Positions 22,926 through 45,422 of a stretch of 64,000 nt of DNA are shown here, in pieces. This stretch comes from Aphrocallistes beatrix. Its lineage: Eukaryota > Porifera > Hexactinellida > Sceptrulophora > Aphrocallistidae. The translations under genes and the position numbers were made by a program. Within the stretch, counting starts at the first letter, position 1. Each line of letters starts with the position of its first letter. Where the stretch lies: assembly GCA_963281255.1 (NCBI GenBank), contig OY725491.1, positions 930,001 through 994,000 of the forward strand, written 5' to 3'. The notes under the pieces are model-generated. The model did not search any database. It was not told the DNA's origin and worked only from the letters and a program-made list of their open reading frames with translations.

Positions 22926-24182
22926 ATGTCTCATGCCTTGTCTGCTGCCCAGAAGCAGTTCAATCAGTTCGGAACTCTCCCGGAGCTCACACACGGAATG
23001 GTACTCGACTACTTCATCGAGAATCATAACCGCGTGCAGAATATCACCTTGGTGAAAGATTTCCAGTTCTTTCTATCTAAGAACGAAGAACAAGTCCTGA
23101 ATCGTACGAAATTCAAAGAGTTTGTGGACGAATTATCTTTTATTAAAATTGAGCCAAGTGGCGAGAAGTATCTTCTTCTCAAAGAGCCATTTCGAGTGCC
23201 GAAGAGATTGCCGAAAACGAGCACCACACGAATGCCAGATTTTCGACACAGCTTGAAAGATAGTTTCACCCCTCCAGACCTCATATTGCCTTCTGATGCA
23301 TTTCCGGCGGCCAACGGTTCGCCAGTTCTCTCAGGAAATCCGCTGAGCAGGCAGTCGCTGTCACCGTCCAGACCTCCTCCGCATGCGCCGATCGTTTCCT
23401 CGATCTCAGTCCCCCCTCCGAAGGAGAGCACCAAGTACCCCAGCCCCCTCTTGCGTCCACACTCGGAGCACCACCGCAGCACCACACCCACATTCTCCCG
23501 CGGGAGACAAGAGTTGGACAAATTCATGCCGGCTGGTCTGCGGTCCAATTCGGACACCACTTCTTTCAACTCGTCCGAGCCAGACAGATCTTCCATGGAT
23601 CTCTCTCGCAGTCTGGAGCACGCCTGGGTCACGGCCTGTGTCACAGGGAATAACGAGCAGATCCACCGCATGCTCCTGGAAGACCCGAACTTCTGCCACT
23701 ACCAGGACTACATATTCGGGTACACAGGGGTTCATTGGGCCGGGAAGCAAGGCCATCTCGAGATCATGGCTTCCCTGATCATGGCTGGAGCAGATGTGAA
23801 CGCCAGGTCATTCGGAGGCTACACCCCACTGCACCTAGCTGCTCAGCAAAACCTTGAGAAAGTGATTGACTTCTTAGTCAATCAGTGTATCGCTGATATC
23901 GACGCTAGAGATAACTACGGAAAACCGCCGGCAGATTATCTCCCCGATTACGCATCGAAACGGTCCCGCTATTGGCTCCGGAAGCAGCTGTACCCCGCCG
24001 TGTACTCCCCCCTGCACTACAACCCTCAGGCGAAGCAGGAAGTGAAAAGGTTCTTCGGTTCTCAAGGAGAGTTGAATGCGTTGGAGAGGACTACATCCAA
24101 AATTCGCGCCAGCTTTCGCAGGAAAAGCAAATCGATCAACCTACAACGCTCCAATACTGTCAGTACGATTAATAGTACTTAA
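22926..24182 (+). CDS. SOWAH: Sosondowah-type ankyrin repeat protein (SOWAH), single exon
   Basis: Intact 418-residue reading frame with ATG in CATCATGTC at 22926. Residues about 25-87 (LDYFIENHNRVQNITLVKDF and onward to KYLLLK) match the N-terminal winged-helix-like SOWAH domain. Residues about 100-200 are a low-complexity Ser/Pro/Arg linker. Residues about 228-330 hold two clear ankyrin repeats: GYTGVHWAGKQGHLEIMASL followed by GGYTPLHLAAQQNLEKVIDF and IDARDNYGKPPADYL. The tail is basic and Ser-rich (RASFRRKSKSINL). SOWAH proteins are poorly understood; a scaffold or nuclear role is only inferred. Family members are usually 400-800 residues, so this is full length. No intron is visible. Part of it is duplicated downstream at 25149. 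Confidence 0.88.
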   Translation: MSHALSAAQKQFNQFGTLPELTHGMVLDYFIENHNRVQNITLVKDFQFFLSKNEEQVLNRTKFKEFVDELSFIKIEPSGEKYLLLKEPFRVPKRLPKTSTTRMPDFRHSLKDSFTPPDLILPSDAFPAANGSPVLSGNPLSRQSLSPSRPPPHAPIVSSISVPPPKESTKYPSPLLRPHSEHHRSTTPTFSRGRQELDKFMPAGLRSNSDTTSFNSSEPDRSSMDLSRSLEHAWVTACVTGNNEQIHRMLLEDPNFCHYQDYIFGYTGVHWAGKQGHLEIMASLIMAGADVNARSFGGYTPLHLAAQQNLEKVIDFLVNQCIADIDARDNYGKPPADYLPDYASKRSRYWLRKQLYPAVYSPLHYNPQAKQEVKRFFGSQGELNALERTTSKIRASFRRKSKSINLQRSNTVSTINST

Positions 24183-25148: not shown

Positions 25149-25799
25149 TAGTTGGACAAATTCATGCCGGCTGGTCTGCGCTCCAATTCGGACACCGCTT
25201 CTTTCAACTCGTCCGAGCCAGACAGATCTTCCATGGATCTCTCTCGCAGTCTGGAGCACGCCTGGGTCACGGCCTGTGTCACAGGGAATTACGAGCAGAT
25301 CCACCGCATGCTCCTGGAAGACCCGAACTTCTGCCACTACCAGGACTACATATTCGGGTACACAGGGGTGCATTGGGCCGGGAAGCAAGGCCATCTCGAG
25401 ATTATGGCTTCCCTGATCATGGCTGGAGCAGATGTGAACGCCAGGTCATTCGGAGGCTACACCCCACTGCACCTAGCTGCTCAGCAAAACCTTGAGAAAG
25501 TGATTGACTTCTTAGTCAATCAGTGTGTCGCTGATATCGACGCTAGAGATAACTACGGAAAACCGCCGGCAGATTATCTCCCCGATTACGCATCGAAACG
25601 GTCCCGCTATTGGCTCCGGAAGCAGTTGTACCCCGCCGTGTACTCCCCCCTGCACTACAACCCTCAGGCGAAGCAGGAAGTGAAAAGGTTCTTCGGTTTT
25701 CAAGGAGAGTTGAATGCGTTGGAGAGGACTACATCCAAAATTCGTGCCAGCTTTCGCAGAAAAATAAAGCTTCGCCTATTTGAAAATGTTTTGTGAACA
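25149..25799 (+). pseudogene. Partial duplicate of the SOWAH ankyrin half
   Basis: From TTGGACAAATTC at 25149 to about 25765 the sequence copies 23513-24128 without indels. I count 10 base differences (6 silent, 4 changing the protein: Thr to Ala, Asn to Tyr, Ile to Val, Ser to Phe), about 98% identity. The SOWAH domain and most of the linker are absent; the first in-frame ATG is at 25164. After the homology ends the frame runs into KLRLFENVL and stops at 25797. The left breakpoint sits directly after ATTAG, which resembles a splice acceptor, so use as an alternative terminal exon cannot be excluded, but I find no donor in the parent gene that would join in frame. Most likely a recent, truncated tandem duplicate. 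Confidence 0.75.
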
Positions 25800-29235: not shown

Positions 29236-29422
29236 CAACGGAAGTGGTACTTAGTGGCATTTGGGTGGCACGAGGGGTTCAGATAATCTGGGTTTCACCC
29301 ACCAATCAATCCTGTTTGCCTCAGAATATAACTGTGCGTATGAGAGCTAACTTTCAACATTAGTAAATTCTGTTATTCACAATCTAACCATGGATGCACA
29401 ACTAAAATAGTTTATCTATGCT

Positions 29423-31090
29423 ATGGGTGTGAAGTTAGCAGCACGTTCAGCAGCGAAAAGTGAGCAGGGTATAATTAGTCCCAGTTTCACAGTGCCTAGT
29501 AGGATCTTGATCAAATTTGAAACAGAACATTATAAGCGAGGTAGCTTTGTGTCATTTTAATATCTAACGGCTACTGATTAAAACCACTTGACAATGACGA
29601 TGCAAATTTGATGAAATTTCTATAGGATTTCAGTATAGCTCAAAGTGAGCAGGGTATAACTAGTTCTAGTTTCGCAGTGCCTTGTGGGATCTTGGTCAAA
29701 TTTGAGACAGGACATTATGAGCGAGGTAGCTTTGTGTCATTTTAATATCTAACGACTACTGATTAAAACCACTTGACAATGACGATGCAAATTTGATGAA
29801 ATTTCTATAGGATTTCAGTATAGCTCAAAGTGAGCAGGGTATAACTAGTTCTAGTTTCGCAGTGCCTTGTGGGATCTTGGCCAAATTTGAGACAGGACAT
29901 TATGAGCGAGGTAGCTTTGTGTCATTTTAATATCTAACGGCTACTGATTAAAACCACTTGACAATGACGATGCAAATTTGATGAAATTTCTATAGGATTT
30001 CAGTATAGCTCAAAGTGAGCAGGGTATAACTAGTTCTAGTTTCGCAGTGCCTTGTGGGATCTTGGCCAAATTTGAGACAGGACATTATGAGCGAGGTAGC
30101 TTTGTGTCATTTTAATATCTAACGGCTACTGATTAAAACCACTTGACAATGACGATGCAAATTTGATGAAATTTCTATAGGATTTCAGTATAGCGCAAAG
30201 TGAGCAGGGTATAACTAGTTCTAGTTTCGCAGTGCCTTGTGGGATCTTGGCCAAATTTGAGACAGGACATTATGAGCGAGGTAGCTTTGTGTCATTTTAA
30301 TATCTAACGGCTACTGATTAAAACCACTTGACAATGACGATGCAAATTTGATGAAATTTCTATAGGATTTCAGTATAGCTCAAAGTGAGCAGGGTATAAC
30401 TAGTTCTAGTTTCGCAGTGCCTTGTGGGATCTTGGCCAAATTTGAGACAGGACATTATGAGCGAGGTAGCTTTGTGTCATTTTAATATCTAACACCTCCC
30501 GATTAAAACCACTTGGCAATGACGATGCAAATTTGATGAAATTTCTATAGGATTTCAGTATAGCTCAAAGTGAGCAGGGTATAACTAGTTCTAGTTTCGC
30601 AGTGCCTTGTGGGATCTTGGTCAAATTTGAGACAGGACATTATGAGCGAGGTAGCTTTGTGTCATTTTAATACCTAACACTTCCTGATTAAAACCACATG
30701 ACAATGACGGTGCAAATTTGATGATATTTCTATAGGATTTCAGTATAGCTCAAAAGTGAGCAGGGTATAACTAGTTCTAGTTTCGCAGTGCCTTGTGGGA
30801 TCTTGGTCAAATTTGAGACAGGACATTATGAGCGAGGTAGCTTTGTGTCATTTTAATACCTAACACCTCCTGATTAAAACCACATGACAATGACGGTGCA
30901 AATTTGATGATATTTCTATAGGATTTCAGTATAGCTCAAAAGTGAGCAGGGTATAACTAGTTCTAGTTTCGCAGTGCCTTGTGGGATCTTGGTCAAATTT
31001 GAGACAGGACATTATGAGCGAGGTAGCTTTGTGTCATTTTAATATCTAACACCTCCCGATTAAAACCACATGACAATGACGATGCAAAAA
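29423..31090. repeat. Left arm: nine 185-bp direct repeats
   Basis: The marker TGAGCAGGGT recurs at 29461, 29646, 29831, 30016, 30201, 30386, 30571, 30757 and 30943, a spacing of 185, then 186, 186 bp. Inner units are nearly identical. The outermost unit is distinct (ATTAGTCCCAGTTTCACAG instead of ACTAGTTCTAGTTTCGCAG) and matches the outermost unit of the right arm. Confidence 0.95.
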
Positions 31091-31279
31091 TTGGACATTT
31101 CTATTTAACTCACTATAGTTAGTTTGCAATGTGAAATTATTGAATTGATTACTGACTAACAATATAACACATTTAGATGATTCTATAGCTTCTAATTTCA
31201 CAATTCGCTATCCTAATGTATGTCAAGGCTAATCCTTGTACATGTAAATATCGTTAACTAACATTTTCATCCTAAATGA

Positions 31280-34200
31280 TCAAATTAGTTTGGTTTGTGA
31301 TCCAATTTGTATGCTTCCAACTTCTTTCACCTGTATTACCGGTTGAAAATGATCTCTAAACAATCTCAGGTAAATCCTAGTCTCTGTCAGGTTATGAGAA
31401 GAATGTTTATCATTGAACCCATACCCTGAAAATTTCATCCAACATTTGCTTTCATCTTTGTAGACAAAAATGTCAGTACCTAGGATCTGTGCTGCTAAGA
31501 ATATTTCTAAGTCAGTACCCCAAGATCCTAATCGGTCCATCAAGCTTATTTTGAGATATTCTTCTATTGTGTTGCAACGCGCTTCGGGTAGCAAATCATT
31601 TCGAGCTTTACAATACTTGGAGCATGTTTCTCTATATTCTCCTTTCATTTTTTGTATTAAGAGCCCTCTTATTTGTTGGTGGTAGCTATCTGTCCCTGCA
31701 ATTACGTAAGAGAGTGATCTAAATAGGCAATTGCCATCTGGTGAGATTCTTTTCTCTCTAGAAGGTATTAGCTGTCGAATTTCCAGGGATTTTTCAATAG
31801 CTTCGTTCTTATACAAAACACCCTTTGTATACGTCATTTGCAGAAATTTGCATTTTTCTTTCTGCCAGCTTTGTGTTACTGGCTTGAAATTTCCGTGATA
31901 AAAGAATGTAATCCCTTCAACGGAGATAGGTTCGTCATCAAGGCTATCATCATAATGCATTGCTCCACTTTTTCCGATTGGTTTAAGTTCAGCTGAAGGA
32001 TTGCGATCACTTGTAGATAGGCATTCAGAACAAGGAGGGATGACAGGGATTCGATTGGATAGTGGTTGAGAAGTTGAAACCTTTCCAGGTTCAAAATAAC
32101 TTCGCTTCTTTTTTTTTTTCGCCCAAATTTCTTCTATTTGATCATCGCTTCTGAATTTTATTTTTCTTCTTTTTATAATTTTATCACTTAATGGTTCGAA
32201 TGCAAACCGAAATGCTCTGATTCTACCGACAATGCCTTCGCGTATTTTACGAATAAAATCTCCCGGCCTTAGTTTGGATTCGTTTTGTAATATTGTAATT
32301 TTGACAATTCTCATCCAGTTCTCAGCGACCGCATTTGTAAATGTAATTCTTGCACTATTTGGAAATAAATTCGGACCTAATATGATTCCTGACCAGAGGG
32401 AACATATGGGCATGTAATGTGTTACTAAGAATGTGGGTAGACTCGGTAGAAAGTGTATGTTTTCCTTGCAATGGTCGGTCCGTTTTTTCTTCTCTAATTC
32501 AGTAATAAATTGTGTGCATTTGTTTAGTTCGCTCTGAAAATAGATACCAAATGGTGATCTTGTTTTATAGGTATTGCTATCTCCCAAATTATTGTCTAGT
32601 TCTTCATCAAGGTCTTCCAAATATTCCAGATCAATATTATATTCGTCATTACTTAGGCTAATGGCATTGTCAAGCTTATGAAAAAAATCCTCAATTTCTG
32701 GGTAATACTTTTTAGCTAGACTTGTGATACATAATGCAACAAAAAGTTGCTTCAGTTCGTCTAACGCTGTACAGCTAACAAATCGTGCCATTATAAACAT
32801 GACTTTTCTTTTTCGTAGTTGATCGATTCTAAATTTACGGCTGAGTTTGTAGCTTAAGCGGTTCATGATGTGTGCTGAACATATGTGAATGATCGTTTTC
32901 GGGGGTTTGGTCGATTTTGGAGTATGAATAACTTGCCAAGATGTAGCCAGATAATCTTCTAGAGTTTGTTTATTGAAACTATTGCAAACGCTGTGCAACA
33001 TTGCCCAGCTATAATCAACTTCTACTTGACTTGGTGTAACTTCACTGTTTGTAACTTTCTTGACATCATATAGCCACTGCTTAAGAAAATGTGATATTTC
33101 CACATTTGTTTGTTTGCTTGATATCATTTCTGCAAGTGGAATTGGGCTTACACGGGATTCAGGATGTTGAACAGATAGCGCATAGTAGAGTATTCTATCT
33201 TGAGACTTCTCTAACTTTCTAACGACCGAGCCAGTTGCATCAAGATGAAATGTCAAACTTTTCTTCTCCAAGTATTTCAATAAAGAGATTTGTTCTTCGC
33301 TATACAAGTGAATTACGAATGGAGTATGGGATATTGTTTGAATATAACCATTCATTTTGTCACCTATGATAGTGCTTTTAAAAGATAGTTGGGTACTGAC
33401 TATGTCTTGCCACATGTCATTGTTAAACCTGGATTTTGACATGTGTTGGGATTTTACTTTTCTGAGTACATCAGTTGAATGCAAAGAATTAAAGTTACCA
33501 TGTTTCGCAGCAGTAAAAATGTCAGGTTTAGTGAACAGAGAATAATGGAAATTTGAAACACTTCTATTCTCGAGTTGTTCAGATATAGTTTCCCTTCTCT
33601 CGCCTGCTAAATGACGGCTTTGTGATACATGATTCGCGAAATGATCTTTTGAAATTGATCCAGTGACAAAATATGTAATTACGAAAACATTATTTGCATT
33701 CGTTTCAGGTTCTTCCATTATAAACTTGAACTTAAAACAATCGCTAAATTTGCAAATTGCGGCAGCTACAAGAAAAGAGCATTTATTGCTATTTGTACTA
33801 TTCTTATTAATCCTATGATATAAGAACTTTAGTACACAAAATGGATATTTCATTGACATCTTTTCATTCAATATGTTTGTCCATTCTGGTTCTAATTTGT
33901 TCTTAATTTCCAAAAACTTTGAGATTATTAACCATTCATGCATTGTTAAATGAATTTCGCCTTGTTCAATCTCATGGGTTGCATCATTCCTATTTGATAA
34001 GATTGCATCATCACGAAAATTATTTTCTGCTAATGGCGAACTTGGACACGATATACTTACAAAATCTGAAGAAATTTCACACGGTAGATCAGAAAATTTA
34101 ATACTTATAGGTAAGGATGTAGTGATAAAATTTGTTTGAACCTGTGATTGAATGTTGTATCTGTTGTTGCGCCATATATTCATAAGCTTTGCTCGTAGTT

Positions 34201-34474
34201 CTAGACGATTTCGACCATATACCATCTTTGCGAGCTTTCCCCAGAAACCAAACGGATTACGCCAATTTCTAGTCAGGCTAAGATTTTCCAGTACAGTGAA
34301 TTCACACAATTCAAATTTCGATAAAGCATTTAGTATCTTCGACGGTAGATTCTGACAAATGATAAATTTGTTATCATCATCTTCTAAAATTAAAAAAAAA
34401 GAATTTTAAAATCTATTTAGCTATGATGGAAATCCTAAGAATAAAAACTGACCATTCGAGTAATCTGCAGACAT
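31280..34474 (-). CDS. MULE/foldback-type transposase fused to an OTU cysteine-protease domain
   Basis: The minus strand reads as two exons. Exon 1 (34474-34453) is 22 nt and gives MSADYSN plus one base, followed by GTCAGT. Exon 2 (34383-31280) follows an AAAT-rich tract and TTTTAG. The join gives 1041 residues with no internal stop. Candidate DDE residues are D389 in FHLDATG, D464 in VEVDYSW and E695 in AVAENWMRIVK, with a CSAH pair after the second Asp. The C-terminal OTU domain has SPDGNCLFRSLSYV (Asp890, Cys893), RLGSWGTDLEIFLAA and RDHFQPV (His1019), so the catalytic triad looks complete. It sits between the arms of a complete element. Assignment as transposase rests on the catalytic spacing, the arms and the 9-bp target duplication; the link to Drosophila FB-NOF proteins is inference. 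The OTU domain may cut ubiquitin chains; its role in transposition is unknown. Confidence 0.78.
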
Positions 34475-35007
34475 CAAATGAACCAAATCGATTTGTTGAC
34501 AGTGAATTGTATAAGTATCAAATTTTATTGATTTTAGATAGTTTTATCATTTAAATATGACTATATTTTGGAAATATGCTATTTTCATTTGAAACCATAT
34601 TACATTTATTTTCGCATTGGCTAATCATAAGTGATATCAATTAATTAGTTATATTATATTAGTACATATTCATCATCATCCGCGGAAAACTAAGTTTTGG
34701 TTTCACTGGATGTTAATCTCAGCTCTGTGGTGAATTCATAAATTTGTTGGACAATAATCATAAACAGGTTTGACCAAGACTCGAAATCATCGCATTAAAC
34801 TGTATGGATTCCAGGTTTCCTCTGCACATTGAAATTCCAGAAGATCGGAAGCACTATTAGTAATTTGTAGAATTTAATATCATGAATTAACACTTATATT
34901 ATACTCGTATGTATTCAATTCTAATGACGTCATGACCCAACGGTTGGTCATGGTCACATTTGGCTTTGAAATATCAGGTGACTGTTGTCGCAATATTTTT
35001 CAATAGA

Positions 35008-36083
35008 GAGGTGTTAGATATTAAAATGACACAAAGCTACCTCACTCATAATGTCTTGTCTCAAATTTGGCCAAGATCCTACAAGGTACTGCGAAACTAG
35101 AACTAGTTATACCCTGCTCACTTTGAGCTATACTGAAATCCTATAGAAATTTCATCAAATTTGCATCGTCATTGTCAAGTGGTTTTAATCAGGAGGTGTT
35201 AGATATTAAAATGACACAAAGCTACCTCGCTCATAATGTTCTATTTCAAATTTGATCAAGATCCCACAAGGTACTGTGAAACTAGAACTAGTTATACCCT
35301 GCTCACTTTGAGCTATACTGAAATCTTATAGAAATTTCATCAAATTTGCATCGTCATTGTCAAGTGGTTTTAATCAGTAGCCGTTAGATATTAAAATGAC
35401 ACAAAGCTACCTCGCTCATAATGTCCTGTCTCAAATTTGACCAAGATCCTACAAGGCACTGCGAAACTAGAACTAGTTATACCCTGCTCACTTTGAGCTA
35501 TACTGAAATCCTATAGAAATTTCATCAAATTTGCATCGTCATTGTCAAGTGGTTTTAATCGGGAGGTGTTAGATATTAAAATGACACAAAGCTACCTCGC
35601 TCATAATGTCCTGTCTCAAATTTGGCCAAGATCCTACAAGGTACTGCGAAACTAGAACTAGTTATACCCTGCTCACTTTGAGCTATACTGAAATCCTATA
35701 GAAATTTCATCAAATTTGCATCGTCATTGCCAAGTGGTTTTAATCGGGAGGTGTTAGATATTAAAATGACACAAAGCTACCTCGCTCATAATGTCCTGTC
35801 TCAAATTTGGCCAAGATCCTACAAGGTACTGCGAAACTAGAACTAGTTATACCCTGCTCACTTTGCGCTATACTGAAATCCTATAGAAATTTCATCAAAT
35901 TTGCATCGTCATTGTCAAGTGGTTTTAATCAGTAGCCGTTAGATATTAAAATAACACAAAGCTACCTCGCTTATAATGTTCTGTTTCAAATTTGATCAAG
36001 ATCCTACAAGGCACTGTGAAACTGGGACTAATTATATCTTGCTCACTTTTCGCTGCTGAACGTGCTGCTAACTTCACACCCAT
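35008..36083. repeat. Right arm: six inverted 185-bp repeats
   Basis: The complement marker ACCCTGCTCA recurs at 35111, 35296, 35481, 35666 and 35851, with a variant (ATCTTGCTCA) at 36036, always 185 bp apart. The arm is the reverse complement of the left arm with three units fewer. Confidence 0.95.
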
Positions 36084-36184
36084 ATCTATGCTGGTCTAAT
36101 TATAGAATAAGGTAGCGTATTGTTATTTTAGTCGTTATTTATAAAATTTGTTTACCATGCATTCTCTACAGTCTGACAATTCAA

Positions 36185-39100
36185 ATGTCATCCTGTCATT
36201 CTGATACTCAGACTAGTGAAACAGAAGACGACTATATGAATGCAATAAACAGCAGCACCTATCAACTGGCACAGCCAGTTGTGAACACCACAGTCGAAAG
36301 GCCACTCGTCCCACCTCCTTTCCCACCCTTCCCTCCTCCTTTTGATCCTCAATTACTGCCACTCTTCCCTCCACTCTCAACTGCTCCCACAAACTCGACA
36401 CCTGGCGAGTTGAATCCGCCTCCACTTTTAATGCCACCCTTCCCGTTACCGCCACTCGATCCAAATAATCCGATTTTCATGCCACTTCCCGAACAGCTTC
36501 CTCCCCAACAACGGGTTCCTCCAACAGATATGGGAAATAGACCAATCGGTTCGCCTTCAGAGAAAAGTATGCGACCACCTTTTCAACACATTGACCCATC
36601 CAGCCATCCACAATTCCAACCACCCACAGTTTCTGCCACTCCTCCACTCTTCCCACCACCTGATCCTATCAACAGACCCCCATTCCAACCACTTGAACCA
36701 CCTAACCATCCACCATTCCAGCCACTTGATCCACCTAACCATCCACCATTCCAACCACTTGAACCACCTAACCATCCACCATTCCAACCACTTGATCCAC
36801 CTAACCATCCACCATTCCCAACGCTGTCGGATCAACAGAATTTGCCGCTCTCTCATATGCAATCGAATCAACAGTTTCAAACTCCTGATGTTATCGGAGT
36901 TCCGAACCAATTCCACTCAGATCATTCAAGCATGGCGCCATTCCAACCACCTAGTCAGCCACAATTTCCTGCCACCTCAGAACCAACGAATTCACACTTC
37001 CCTCATCCAGCTGATCTGCCGAGTAGGCCTCATTTCCTGCCTCCTGATATGCAGAATCGACCGCCATTCCCAAATCCTGAACGACCGCTACTTCCCCCCA
37101 TTGAGCACCCTCTCCCTCCCCTTGACGCCCAAAACCAGCCCTCCTTCCAACCCGCGGATCTGAATTTGCGGAATCCAGTCAACCACTCCAACCCACCCAT
37201 GTTCCAGCTGACAACTGACCCTCAAATGCAGCCGCGATTCCAGGGATTTTCAGAACTGCACAATCGCAATTCTGATCCGAACTTTCCCCCTCTTGTCCAG
37301 CCGAATCAACCGCGTTTTCAGCCGCCAGAAACGCGAAACAGGGAACATTTTGTGCCACCTGCACCCATTCACCCCCCTTTCCAACCTTCTGATCCGCCTG
37401 TCTGGGGGAGACGATCGCCGTCCGAACACTCGGACCATCCCCCTGACCCATCAGGCCCACCCCGCTTCCGCATTCCCTCCACTCACAATTTTCCTGACCC
37501 AAATCCTGAGGCACCAGTTCGCGATGCGAATAATGTCCAACATTTCCAACCAGCGGACACGATAACGTCACCAATCCTTCCTCCTAACCTGCAACACTTC
37601 CCCACTCCGCCATTCACATCTCCACCTCCACCCCCTCCACCCCCTCCTCCCCCTCCTCCCTCTCCTCCCTCTAACCCTGAACGTTTCCCGCCGGAGCACA
37701 GAGAAGCTGATCTCATCGCCTCACCAAAAAGTGACCCCAATATCGACCCCAAAGATAGTCCCCAATTCACACCTCCTCCACCCAGCCTCCCTTTCTTATC
37801 CAACCACCCGGACAACAACTCAAGACCACCCGAACCATGGATGCCACCGCCGAACCAGAATCTCCCGCATCCACAGTTCCCATTTCAAGAACCCGCGCCT
37901 TCTCTCAGCCCTTCCAAGGAGAGAACTCCGGACAGAAATGAACATATCCCATCGGCGCATGAACCCTCACAGGGGCAGATTTCTCCAGATCAGACCGGGA
38001 CACAAGCCCCCGCTAAACTCGATTCCCGCCCCCCGTTCGAAATGGCCAACGAACAAGGTTCAGTCAGACCGATGAATCTTCACCACGGAATGCCATTCAA
38101 CCATCCGGATGGAATGGAATTCGAACTGGAACCAAACTTCCATGATCCGCATTACCACCCCATGTCCCACCAAAGACCCCCTTTGGACCAGCCTTTTATC
38201 CGTCCGCCTTTCCATCGCCCTAGGATGTTAGGTCCGCCCCCGAGGGAATCATTTTACCCGCCATTCCACATGGGCCGTCCCATGCGACACAGGCCACCTC
38301 CACAAATGGGACATATGCCATTCCGTCCAGCTTGGTCTGAGCATGTGACGGTTGATGGACGAGTGTACTACTACAACCACCAGACCTTACAGTCCATGTG
38401 GGAACGACCGAATGATTTCGAAGGCGACCCCTCACACCCTCCACCGATGCTCCACCCCCCTATACACATGGAGGCAGAACAAGGGGTTCCGATGGAGGAA
38501 AAGAAAACTGAAACTGAACCTAAAGAGGAGCAACCAGCTGGTACGAAGCCCATAAACTCAACCCCTGTGCCTGGTACTGAATGGTGTGTTGTGTGGACTA
38601 ATGACAACAAAGTTTTCTTCTTCAATCCAGTTCTGAATAAGTCTGTGTGGTTGTTGCCGAACGAGTTGAAGGAGCATCCTATCGCTAGGAAACTAATGGA
38701 ACGCAATCCTGATCTCCCTGAACCGGAGCCTGCTCCTGTTGAAAGCACACCCAAACGTGCTAAAATCGAACCGGAAGTGGTTTTAGAAGAGGAAAAATCC
38801 AGTGACGATGAGAGTGAGACTGAAATGTCGAAAGGTGTCGAAATAATCTTGCAACAACCGAATAAAAAACAGAGTAAAAAAGCGAAAGAGGTTAAGACTG
38901 ATACTTTGGTTAGTGAAGCCGAAGCGAAAGTTCTCCGCTCTACCAGACCGATAGAATCTCGTGTTGCGGAGTATAAGGAGATGTTGTTACAGAGAGGAGT
39001 GTCCGCATTCTCCACTTGGGAGAAGGAACAACCAAAAGTTGCCTTCGACCCTCGCTACGTACTTCTAACAGCGAAAGAACGCAAGTCTGTGTTTGACCAA

Positions 39101-40115
39101 TTTACCCAGGAACGAATCCATGAAGAGAAACGGGAGAAGAATTTGAAATTGAAACAGAAACGAGATAAATTTTTCAGTTTACTTCAAGATGCAAAAGTTG
39201 GGCCGAAATCTTCTTTCCATGAGTTTATGTTAAAATGGTCCAAAGAACCGAGATTTAAAGAAATCGAAAGACTAAAGGAAAGAGAGAGTCTCTTCATAGA
39301 ATTTCAAGCTAATCTGAAGAAGAAAACTAAAACTCAGACAAAATCTTTATCTGAAACAATTCCTGAAACGAGACAAATTCCAGACGAAAAAGACTTGAAA
39401 CAGAATAGAATACAGGCGTCACTCCGAGAAAGGGAAAGAGAGGTTTATGAGAGTCGGAGGAACCAAGAGAGAGATTTGGAGGATCAACGAAACATTCACA
39501 AACGAGATGAAGCCAAAACTCAGTACAAAGCTCTCCTCACTGAAATGGTGAAGGACTCACGGACTAATTTCAAATCTTTTGAGAAGATTCTGAGAGAAAA
39601 CCCGGACAATGATGAGTTCTATGAGAGTTTGTCTCGAGACGAGAGACAGATTCAATTCGAAAACCATCTCGACCATCTCCAGAGCAAGAAACGACTGCAG
39701 TTCCAAGCTTGCATCGACGAATGCTCAGAAATAGACTATTCCACCACTTGGAAAAGAGCACGGAAACTGTTGAAATCGGATCCGCGGTTGGAAGCTGTTT
39801 CGAGTAGTGAGACGAAGCAGGAGACAGAATTCCTACGCTACATCGAATCCAAGAGTAAGCGAGCGAGAGAAGACTTCCTCCAGCTGCTGAAAGAGACGAA
39901 GCTAATCACACACAAAACAGAGCTAAACCTGAAACACAACCCGAAAGAGTTGAAAGAGATCCACTCGCTCCTCGCGAAGGACCGTCGCTACCTCGATCTA
40001 GACTGCCTCAGTGAGGACAGGTCTCAGATGGTACTGAGTCACGTCTCAGAACTGTCTAAGAAGGGAACCCCTCCCCCTCCCACCGCGACCAGTCCCAACA
40101 GAGCCCGACTCAAGT

Positions 40116-40117
<2 letters not shown>
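36185..40117 (+). CDS. TCERG1: TCERG1/CA150-like WW and FF domain protein, intronless
   Basis: 1310 residues in one uninterrupted exon. TCERG1 couples RNA polymerase II elongation to splicing in the nucleus by binding the phosphorylated CTD (FF domains) and splicing factors (WW domains). Residues about 30-700 are Pro-rich, including four tandem copies of an 11-residue PPNHPPFQPL-type unit and a run of about 14 prolines. WW domains lie near 716-745 (VDGRVYYYNHQTLQSMWERP) and 797-830 (TEWCVVWTNDNKVFFFNP), corresponding to WW2 and WW3 of the vertebrate protein; no WW1 is seen. FF1 starts near 925 (LLQRGVSAFSTWEKE, FDPRYVLL) and FF2 near 993. A charged linker stands where FF3 should be, then ASLREREREV and FF4-FF6, ending in Pro-rich GTPPPPTATSP. 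Five FF domains rather than six. The start is the first ATG, 101 bp after a transposon end. Confidence 0.9.
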
Positions 40118-40165: not shown

Positions 40166-40715
40166 TCTATTCTGTCACTGTAACGCTTTGAATAAATTTA
40201 TTGAGTTAGAACAATAAATATATTTCAGACTTAGAAACAACACAGATTCACTTGTTTTATTTGGGTAGTCCTTAGAGAATTATCCACCTCAGTGTTCATA
40301 TGTACATTTCCCAAGGTAAATCTAGTAATAAATTATTCGTAAAATTTAGAACTACGTATCATGGTCTCGTTTTAATCCAGCTTCTACGAAAAGATACTTT
40401 ATAGCATGGACGGTGTCTTATTCATTTGGTAAGTTCAGAAGTTCTGAAATCTGACAAACTGATTTCTATCAAGCTTGGCATGCAGGATCCCTTCATTGTA
40501 TAGATTGGCGCCTGTTGATATTTTCTACCACGGAATATCACGACTATTTGATTTCCCTGAAATAGACCATCCCTGGTATATATTTATAAACAAGATTTAT
40601 TTTGGGGATATAACTTTATCAGTTTAAATGTTTGTTTAAATTCTTAAGTGCAAATACATATATTTATAGACCTTTAAATCAATTTTTAATAAATGCATTT
40701 TCTATGATAGAAATA

Positions 40716-41990
40716 ATGGCAACAAGTAGTCCAGGATCTGGTCCTGTTAGTTTGTTCCCAGTCAATAACAAACTCCAAGACAAAGTGAATTTGTTGAGAG
40801 AAGTGATTGACAGGAAGAAATTGGAGGTGAGGAGAGTGAGTAAAGAGATGAGAGATCTCATTGAGGAGAAAGAAGAGCAAACTATCCGAGAGTTGGAAGC
40901 TATTTGGGAACAAGTGAATGTCAGATTGGATCAGAAGAAAACCGATATGCAAAACAAAATCGACGAAATCGAGAAACAAAGGAATAGACTAGTTGAACTT
41001 ATGCAAGATTTCGGCTCAGTTGAAACAGCTCTACCTCAAATATCTGAGAAAATCGATTCAGTGAAAAGAGAAATGGACATTTCCATTCCTTATGTGAAGG
41101 TGACATGGAGAATCGATGAATTGAAAGAAGCTATAACTAGAATGTGTCGTTGTGAGGAACAGATTATCTCTTATAAGGAAGGAACTCCTTATCAACTGAA
41201 ATGGAGTAAGTGTGAGAGAGGAAATGGAGACAATCAACTTGAACGGTCATGTGGTATAGCGACAAACTCAATGAATGGAAATATTTATGTAACTGATGGA
41301 CCATCCAACAGAATTAAAATATTCTCCAAAGAAGGAGAATGGATCAGATCTGTGAAAGATGTCGAAATGATTAAGCCTGAAAATATTATATTTCACAAAA
41401 AATCAATCTACGTACAATGTTGTAGAGTAATTCTGAAATTGAATGAATTCACTGAGAAGAAAGAAAAGTCTAAATCTTATCATTTTATGATTGGAGGTAT
41501 TTGTACAGACAATAATCATATTTATGTTGGTAAGTACAGAGGAATGTGTTTAATAGTCTTGACTCTCGATTTGAATGAAGAAAACAGAATAACTCTACAA
41601 ACTCAATTCTGTAACCAAAATAAAACTGTAATCGGAGATATATCTCTAACTCAGGAAGAATTCTACATTTTACTATCTGAAACAGACTATCCGATTCAAG
41701 CATTCTCTAGAGAAGGAGTTCTTACAAGATGTGTTGTTCAGAAAGACAGCATTCATGATGGTTATTATTTCTGTTTAGATCAACAACTAAACATATTTGT
41801 AGCAGACTATGGAGACTCTAAAGTGAAAATATTCTCCAATGATGGGAAACTACTAACTCAGTTTGGAATGAAGGGATCAGAGAAAGGACAGTTCTCTTGT
41901 CTACAAGGAATATATGTAGATGAGTTAGGATGTGTTGTCACAGCAGATAATAGGCAGCACGACATGTTACAGACATTCTCTCTCTTCTAA
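40716..41990 (+). CDS. Coiled-coil/NHL-repeat protein, TRIM-like without RING (copy 1)
   Basis: 424 residues from the ATG at 40716, chosen because the downstream paralogue begins with the same MATSSPGSGPVSLF; an in-frame ATG-less extension upstream is not shared. Residues about 15-150 form a charged coiled coil (VIDRKKLEVRRVSKEMRDLI, KEEQTIRELEAIWEQ). From about 180 on there are NHL-type beta-propeller blades: CGIATNSMNGNIYVTDGPSN, NRIKIFSKEGEWIRSV, FVADYGDSKVKIFSNDGKLL, FGMKGSEKGQFSCLQGIYVD. This is the C-terminal half of TRIM2/3/71-type proteins, but RING and B-box are absent. Possible roles are protein or RNA binding; function unknown. A possible AATAAA lies at 42107. Confidence 0.85.
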   Translation: MATSSPGSGPVSLFPVNNKLQDKVNLLREVIDRKKLEVRRVSKEMRDLIEEKEEQTIRELEAIWEQVNVRLDQKKTDMQNKIDEIEKQRNRLVELMQDFGSVETALPQISEKIDSVKREMDISIPYVKVTWRIDELKEAITRMCRCEEQIISYKEGTPYQLKWSKCERGNGDNQLERSCGIATNSMNGNIYVTDGPSNRIKIFSKEGEWIRSVKDVEMIKPENIIFHKKSIYVQCCRVILKLNEFTEKKEKSKSYHFMIGGICTDNNHIYVGKYRGMCLIVLTLDLNEENRITLQTQFCNQNKTVIGDISLTQEEFYILLSETDYPIQAFSREGVLTRCVVQKDSIHDGYYFCLDQQLNIFVADYGDSKVKIFSNDGKLLTQFGMKGSEKGQFSCLQGIYVDELGCVVTADNRQHDMLQTFSLF

Positions 41991-44120: not shown

Positions 44121-45422
44121 ATGGCAACAAGTAGTCCAGGATCTGGTCCTGTTAGTTTGTTCCCAGTCAATAACAAACTCCAAAACAAAGTGAATTTGTT
44201 GAGAGAAGTGATTGACAGGAAGAAATTGGAAGTGAAGAGAGTGAGTAAAGAGATGAGAGATCTCATTGAGAAGAAAGAAGAGCAAACTATCCGAGAGTTG
44301 GAAGCTATTTGGGAACAAGTGAATGTCAGAATTGAAAACGAAGAGAAGGAAACTCAGAAATTGATTGAAGAAATCAATATGCAGAATAGCGAAATGCAAA
44401 AAATCTATGAAAAAATGGAAAACCTTTTCAAAGGAAAGAATCAAAGCTTAACTCCTCTAACTTTACTTCAAATATCTGAGAAAATCGATTCATTGAAAAG
44501 AGAAATGGACATTTCCATTCCTTATGTGAAGGTGACATGGAGAATCGATGAATTGAAAGGAGCTATAACTAGAATGTGTCGTTGTGGGGAACAGATTATC
44601 TCTTATAAGGAAGGAACTCCTTATCAACTGAAATGGAGTAAGTGTGAGAGAGGAAAGGGAGACAATCAACTTGAGAGCCCACGTGGTATAGCGACAAACT
44701 CAATGAATGGAAATATTTATGTAACTGACAGACCATCCCACAGAATTCAAATATTCTCGAAAGAAGGAGAATGGATCAGATCTGTGAAAGATGTCGAAAT
44801 GAAATATCCTGAAAATATTCTATTTCACAATAAATCAATCTACGTACAATGTTATAAAGTAATTCTGAAATTGAATGAATCCACTGAGAAGAAAGAAAAG
44901 TCTAAATCTTATGGTTTTATCATTGGCGGTATTTGTACAGACAATAATCATATTTATGTTGGTAAGTACAAAGGAATGCGTTTAATAGTCTTAACTCTCG
45001 ATTTGATTGAAGAAAACAGAATAACTCTACAAACTCAATTCTGTAACCAAGATGAAACTGAAATCAGAGATATATCTCTAACTCAAGAAGAATTCTACAT
45101 TTTGTTATTTGAAACAGACTATCCGATTCAAGCATTCTCTAGAGAAGGAGTTCTTACAAGATGTGTTGTTCAGAAAGATAGCATTCATAATGGTTGGTGT
45201 TTCTGTTTAGATCAACAACTAAACATATTTCTATCAGACTGTGGAGACTCTAAAGTGAAAATATTCTCCAATGAAGAGAAACTACTAACTCAGTTCGGAG
45301 AGAAAGGATCTGAGAAAGGACAGTTCTCTTGTCTACGAGGAATATCTGTAGATGAGTTAGGATGTGTTGTCACAGTAGATTTGAAGCAGCACGACATGCT
45401 ACAGACATTCTCTCCCTTCTAA
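44121..45422 (+). CDS. Coiled-coil/NHL-repeat protein (copy 2)
   Basis: 433 residues, start MATSSPGSGPV at 44121. Organisation is as in the copy at 40716: coiled coil, then NHL blades (RGIATNSMNGNIYVTDRPSH, LSDCGDSKVKIFSNEEKLL, FGEKGSEKGQFSCLRGISVD). The first ~205 nt and the stretch after ATATCTGAGAAAATCGATTC are nearly identical to copy 1, whereas residues about 69-115 of the coiled coil are unrelated (ENEEKETQKLIEEINMQN here), so the difference is a block rather than scattered. Both copies are open. Tandem duplication is the simplest explanation, with a mariner element now between them. Confidence 0.85.
   Translation: MATSSPGSGPVSLFPVNNKLQNKVNLLREVIDRKKLEVKRVSKEMRDLIEKKEEQTIRELEAIWEQVNVRIENEEKETQKLIEEINMQNSEMQKIYEKMENLFKGKNQSLTPLTLLQISEKIDSLKREMDISIPYVKVTWRIDELKGAITRMCRCGEQIISYKEGTPYQLKWSKCERGKGDNQLESPRGIATNSMNGNIYVTDRPSHRIQIFSKEGEWIRSVKDVEMKYPENILFHNKSIYVQCYKVILKLNESTEKKEKSKSYGFIIGGICTDNNHIYVGKYKGMRLIVLTLDLIEENRITLQTQFCNQDETEIRDISLTQEEFYILLFETDYPIQAFSREGVLTRCVVQKDSIHNGWCFCLDQQLNIFLSDCGDSKVKIFSNEEKLLTQFGEKGSEKGQFSCLRGISVDELGCVVTVDLKQHDMLQTFSPF

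Follow-up and report, generated by a model that had tools for sequence, protein, structure and literature searches.

A recently mobile foldback transposon of the glass sponge Aphrocallistes beatrix encodes a transposase with an OTU domain tail

Positions 29423-36083 of a 64,000-nucleotide window of the genome of the glass sponge Aphrocallistes beatrix (contig OY725491.1, positions 930,001 to 994,000) are a complete transposon, with terminal inverted ends, repeat arms and a single two-exon gene. By the window we mean this whole stretch of DNA, and we count coordinates from its first base (Table 1). The element is confirmed as real and complete. An original prediction, made from the window sequence, had described it as a foldback transposon related to Mutator-like elements (MULEs) that encodes a transposase fused to an OTU domain, and this description is borne out by its duplications and copies, by the D-D-E and C..H residues and predicted RNase H-like fold of its transposase, and by the OTU domain. 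We think that it is probably an autonomous, recently active cut-and-paste transposon of the foldback, MULE-like (Rehavkus) type, whose OTU domain most likely acts as a protease in cis during transposition.

The predicted 9-bp duplication is present and perfect, with ATCTATGCT on both flanks of the element. The predicted inverted arms are built of 185-bp direct repeats, about 8.8 units on the left and about 5.6 on the right, and the two arms are 96% complementary over 1087 nt. Folding a single arm unit as DNA gave nothing unusual (z = -0.37), and an Rfam scan of the window gave zero matches. The first 20 bases of the terminal inverted sequence, ATGGGTGTGAAGTTAGCAGCACGTTCAGC, fit a terminal motif, ATGRRTGTGAAGTTRGCAGC, that occurs genome-wide 35 times in forward and 33 times in reverse orientation; the backward control gave 0 + 0, so the motif is more than a chance occurrence. 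An arm probe had at least 163 matches in the 100.5-Mb genome. We examined 21 loci (20 that we fetched, and the window) and located both ends of the element in 14, of which 12 have perfect and mutually different 9-bp duplications, as read from the flanks by eye. A core of 3909 nt is 100% identical in the window and four other loci (L009, L010, L011 and L012), and an identical exon-2 product of 1033 residues is encoded at five loci. The numbers of arm units vary among these identical-core copies–for example, L009 has 6 and 8 matches, and L010 has 6 and 9. Because five cores are identical, and 12 of the 14 two-ended elements have perfect, different duplications, the family has moved recently, and four of the five identical-core copies are therefore separate, recent insertions. 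The recent activity that had been proposed is thus upheld, and the genome-wide search that had been suggested as a check did find near-identical copies with different 9-bp duplications, rather than copies that all lack them.

The gene was predicted to be open, with two exons and 1041 residues, and it is: the two minus-strand exons, joined at a splice junction that we infer from the sequence, give a stop-free frame of that length. Of 8 older copies that we inspected, 5 have the same junction sites, and in the other 3 the exon-1 string was not found. D389, D464 and E695, which had been proposed as the DDE (Asp-Asp-Glu) catalytic set, stand at those positions and are nearly invariant among relatives, and a C..H motif (C509..H512) lies between the second D and the E. 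A structure prediction, the check proposed for this central region, returned an RNase H-like fold. Closer to the N-terminus is a probable zinc-binding, DNA-binding region, in which C218 and C223 are conserved in 54 of 54 aligned rows, and H255 in 36 of 56. This region is WRKY-like by motif (its Foldseek match is weak; AtWRKY18, E = 0.44), and we take it to be comparable to WRKY/FLYWCH domains. At the C-terminus, the OTU domain of the original prediction, which represents a class of ubiquitin-removing enzymes, scores above the Pfam cut-off, has an OTU fold in the predicted structure, and has its Cys and His. Between subfamilies, which are synonymously saturated, the OTU is as conserved as the catalytic core.

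A search for related proteins in the genome gave 64 matches, including open relatives at 59, 52, 50, 38, 37 and 35% identity. We fetched the loci of four open relatives (L029, L030, L031 and L032). All four have inverted arms, and all four proteins have an OTU domain above the Pfam cut-off. Three of these sister elements have perfect 9-bp duplications (L029, L030 and L032; that of L030, GAAGAGGAG, was read from the printed flanks, having been skipped by our script's complexity filter), and L031 has a duplication of 8 bp, or of 10 bp with a shifted end. A Pfam scan covered 61 of 65 homologues (all except P0015, P0035, P0041 and P0051). It found OTU tails in P0001, P0003 and P0012, each of which retains the Cys and His; UCH domains in P0010, P0043, P0052, P0053 and P0054; and Ulp1 (Peptidase_C48) domains in P0011, P0047, P0048, P0055, P0056, P0059, P0060 and P0065, and also in P0052 and P0054. 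In one scan batch, a third Peptidase_C48 member was counted at E up to 0.01. PHD fingers scored above the cut-off in P0046, P0052, P0055 and P0057. Many homologues without a recognised tail are fragments. Some relatives have several domains: P0052 (1841 residues) has PHD, BAG, UCH and Ulp1, P0053 has an HMG box and UCH, P0054 has an HMG box, UCH and Ulp1, and P0057 has PHD and YqaJ. Past the core, the Pfam-negative C-termini of P0005, P0009, P0023 and P0025 share a motif of NTC..D type (for example, NTCPVDNLL), and may represent a further type of cysteine protease tail. A FastTree tree was built from 69 rows, with P0051 dropped; in it, the eight OTU rows form a single branch with support 1.0, free of rows with other recognised tails. 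The five UCH rows are on another branch, also with support 1.0, that includes the PHD row P0046, and the eight rows with only Ulp1 are on a third. Since the tails cluster by branch, the tree suggests that there were few captures of protease tails, each of which was then inherited.

In the mechanism that we infer from these features, the zinc-binding domain would bind the terminal sequence, and perhaps also repeated sites in the arms; the DDE core would excise and insert the element with 9-bp staggered cuts; and the OTU, in cis, would remove ubiquitin or a ubiquitin-like protein during transposition, either from the transposase or, where the element is excised or inserted, from repair proteins and chromatin. 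The original prediction had mentioned both turnover and chromatin, and we consider the two corresponding roles, stabilising the transposase and clearing ubiquitin at the DNA site, about equally likely. Alternatively, with no role at the DNA, the OTU could shield the transposase from ubiquitin-dependent turnover by self-deubiquitination, which we regard as possible rather than probable: the OTU is fused in cis and conserved equally with the core, and the different ubiquitin and SUMO protease families of the relatives fit a simple stabilising role, but the Ulp1 domains of other branches, Ulp1 being usually SUMO-specific, suit turnover less well. To the same limited degree we would credit an action in trans, on the host's repair factors or its chromatin (for instance, on histone ubiquitin or on damage signalling), by which gap repair or silencing would be eased. 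A repair role has been proposed for the OTU and Ulp1 domains of Ginger1 transposons (PMC2836005; this and our other citations refer to excerpts of the papers), and PHD fingers occur in the four relatives named above, although the window protein has none at E values up to 1. Our preferred reading is still that of an active deubiquitinase that would be used in cis during transposition.

Two features that are expected of a MULE are present, namely 9-bp duplications (in 12 of 14 elements and in three of four sister elements), and an RNase H-like DDE core with C..H, a marker of MULEs, between the second D and the E. The predicted core fold aligns best with ISCth4, and then with the P element, Hermes and RAG1; we find it unlikely that the core derives from one of the other RNase H groups (P, hAT or RAG/Transib) instead of being MULE-like. 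The closest published description, within the excerpts covered, is that of Rehavkus, which is treated as a relative of MULEs: Dupeyron et al. 2019 (PMC6446971) place it as a MULE outgroup or an early-diverging MULE branch, and list as its traits a minisatellite, 9-bp duplications, a PHD finger and a single open reading frame (ORF), and as its hosts arthropods and annelids. Named elements are Rehavkus-1_TC and Rehavkus-1_HR (PMC6446971, and the Tribolium satellite paper PMC10218199). The window element resembles Rehavkus in its 9-bp duplication and one ORF (PMC6446971), in the tandem satellite repeats of its inverted termini (PMC10218199), and in the PHD fingers of its relatives. It differs, in a comparison by description only, in that no PHD finger is detectable in its protein, which ends in a C-terminal OTU, a term absent from PMC6446971. 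Because the anatomy agrees, whereas PHD is undetected and an OTU is found instead, we would call the element Rehavkus-like, and a MULE in the broad sense, rather than file it as Rehavkus. Three homologue searches returned no named NOF or Rehavkus protein among the 65 homologues; one of them scored only the 7990 candidates with the most shared words. In Drosophila, the Foldback element FB-NOF has inverted arms of tandem repeats, 9-bp duplications and a central gene, and in this general anatomy the window element is like it; we know of no OTU domain in NOF. Classical Mutator/MULE elements such as MuDR and Phantom have the 9-bp duplication and the D-D-E residues with C..H in common with the window element, and some of them have ubiquitin-like protease domains, but the window element is negative for the classical MULE domain PF10551, is only weakly similar to classical MULEs in a profile comparison, and has an OTU rather than Ulp1 (for Ulp1 on Mutators, see PMC2836005).

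Several observations weigh against reading the element as a mobile MULE relative with a working OTU protease. In the genome, L012 and L015 have two ends yet no duplication, for which ectopic recombination between arms is a possible cause, and one or both ends were not located in 7 of the 21 loci. (L012, at G000:C6:4037908-4046319, has the identical core and intact ends, and an insert of about 1.35 kb interrupts its right arm.) In the protein, no transposase model was matched in the Pfam scan, and PF10551 is absent at E up to 1 and has 121 matches elsewhere in the same genome. An hhalign comparison to four classical MULEs of this genome was weak (E = 0.03, probability 1.7%), with the catalytic motifs in register, and the best Foldseek match of the core in the PDB was at 1.3e-3, with none at E = 0.001 or better. 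As regards the OTU, its structure model has a mean predicted local distance difference test score (pLDDT) of 64.9 and was built with only 4 sequences, and at +2 relative to the catalytic His, a position that is Asp or Asn in many OTUs, the aligned relatives have Gln or Glu. Between L031 and L032, the replacement value of the OTU (0.023) is greater than that of the RNase H region (0.001), an excess that is partly due to the differing end of the L032 frame. Transposons often capture coding sequence, and relatives with truncated or unrecognised tails do exist (many of these records are fragments), but it is very unlikely that the OTU is a captured passenger of little function, because it is conserved as strongly as the core across synonymously saturated subfamilies and keeps its Cys and His in the OTU-tailed homologues.

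OTU domains on transposases are already known from Ginger1: the excerpts of PMC2836005 describe Ginger1 transposases with C-terminal OTU, Ulp1 or PHD domains, and Ulp1 also on Mutators. In Ginger1 elements the core is Gypsy-integrase-like, with an H2C2 finger, and the target duplications are CCGG/CCGT (PMC2836005). The window element is like them in the C-terminal OTU and unlike them in its core, its foldback arms, and its 9-bp duplications of varied sequence. We rejected the identification of the window element as a Ginger1, because rve and H2C2 are absent at E up to 1 and the duplications are of 9 bp and varied. Of at least 149 OTU matches in the genome, many are last exons of 210-243 codons with no foldback transposase nearby; the OTU loci include L040, L041, L043, L047, L059 and L060. 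Upstream of L041 there is an Integrase_H2C2 match of 54.9 bits, above the cut-off, and an rve core of 29.0 bits, under the cut-off of 32.6 (E = 1.4e-6). By eye, L059 has an integrase arrangement like it, and the DNA of L040, L043 and L060 resembles that of L041. We did not see an integrase domain in the 1.1 kb upstream of L051, and L052, L058 and L063 were outside this check. Judged by the description in PMC2836005, two groups of OTU matches, those of L041 and L059, are confirmed to be the final exons of Ginger1-type transposons. Against nine Ginger1-type OTU exons, the window OTU scores 56-96 bits, and against cellular OTUs, of which there were four only, two being human segments of 122-123 residues, it scores 23-37 bits. 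Similarly, a profile of element OTUs scores 73-113 bits against the Ginger1-type exons and 7-26 bits against the cellular OTUs. The likeness to the Ginger1-type exons extends to the WQKEKC stretch ahead of the OTU proper, and the best OTU match in a search of the whole PDB had 16.2 bits. In an OTU tree (from which L049, missed by the motif search, is absent), the 19 transposon OTUs are not a single clade in the best tree, and branches are long; their monophyly is not rejected (p-AU = 0.256), in a test that the long branches weaken. Because the tree neither shows nor rejects a transposon clade, it is by score that the closest OTUs found appear to be the Ginger1-type tails of the same genome.

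Sister subfamilies have a further feature in their first exon. In L029 this exon encodes a hydrophobic leader followed by CGDVEVNPGP (L029:2744-2890), a 2A-like motif, and its splice position seems to match that of the window gene's exon 1. At a 2A motif the ribosome skips a peptide bond, and such motifs are used in signal-like leaders. L030 has a 2A-like motif (L030:2861-2886) that is preceded by a different sequence. Exon 1 of the window gene lacks the leader and 2A-like motif found at the same intron position in L029 and L030, and there is no such motif in any of the six frames of the window element. A degenerate pattern (CGDVE, then V, L or similar, then NPGP) has 15 sites in the genome (G000) and 0 in the control. 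For seven of them, one of the 23 transposase places that we entered lies 93-751 nt downstream in the same orientation; of the other eight, four are close to a terminal motif, one is followed by an OTU match at 2.5 kb, and three are unassigned. Our literature search, which did not extend to Repbase Reports, found in its excerpts no description of an OTU, or of a 2A-like motif, on a Rehavkus or MULE transposase. We consider three points new: the presence of an OTU in the transposase of a foldback MULE-like element, other branches of whose family have UCH or Ulp1; a window OTU far closer by score to Ginger1-type OTU exons than to the four cellular OTUs; and the leader exon with a 2A-like motif in sister subfamilies. 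We tentatively suggest, as something quite possible that we would stop short of calling probable, that one OTU module passed between two superfamilies that are unrelated, Ginger1 and a Rehavkus-type foldback MULE, that sister branches of the latter recruited UCH and Ulp1, and that some subfamilies carry a 2A-like leader.

Next to the element (window 36185-40117) is a TCERG1-like gene, encoding FF and WW domains, whose ORF starts about 90 bp past the right duplication, so that the insertion is close to the gene's 5' end. The window also contains two similar ankyrin-repeat ORFs in tandem (22926-24182 and 25152-25796), the second of which resembles a partial copy, and two other similar tandem ORFs (40632-41990 and 44121-45422), with an NHL repeat detected in the second. 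Elsewhere in the assembly, the one COX1 match, on C28, translates well with the invertebrate mitochondrial code.

Table 1. Features of the transposon, in window coordinates.
Feature	Position	Strand	Details
Target-site duplication, left copy	29414..29422		ATCTATGCT, 9 bp, perfect
Left terminal inverted sequence	29423..29451	+	ATGGGTGTGAAGTTAGCAGCACGTTCAGC, 29 bp, same sequence at right end
Left arm	29457..31088	+	~8.8 tandem units of 185 bp
Exon 2, transposase-OTU gene, including stop codon	31280..34383	-	identical in five loci
OTU tail	31322..31876	-	D890-G-N-C893, H1019; conserved WQKEKC stretch upstream
RNase H-like transposase domain (predicted)	32177..33361	-	D389, D464, C509..H512, E695
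Probable zinc-binding DNA-binding region	33638..33832	-	C218, C223, H255; predicted beta-sheet
Exon 1, transposase gene (inferred)	34453..34474	-	MSADYSN
Right arm	35008..36049	-	~5.6 tandem units of 185 bp, inverted relative to left arm
Right terminal inverted sequence	36055..36083	-	29 bp, matches left end
Target-site duplication, right copy	36084..36092		ATCTATGCT, 9 bp, perfect

The question of what ubiquitin proteases do for transposases was raised for Ginger1 in 2010 (PMC2836005). With several identical open copies and intact ends, the family described here is a natural system for studying that role, and it allows a single transposase to be compared in versions with OTU, UCH and Ulp1. 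The likeness of its OTU to Ginger1-type tails suggests that transposons swap accessory enzymes with one another, rather than each capturing them from the host. If an OTU module did pass between them in this way, ubiquitin-protease tails would be something that these animal DNA transposons recurrently need in order to move, and can exchange.
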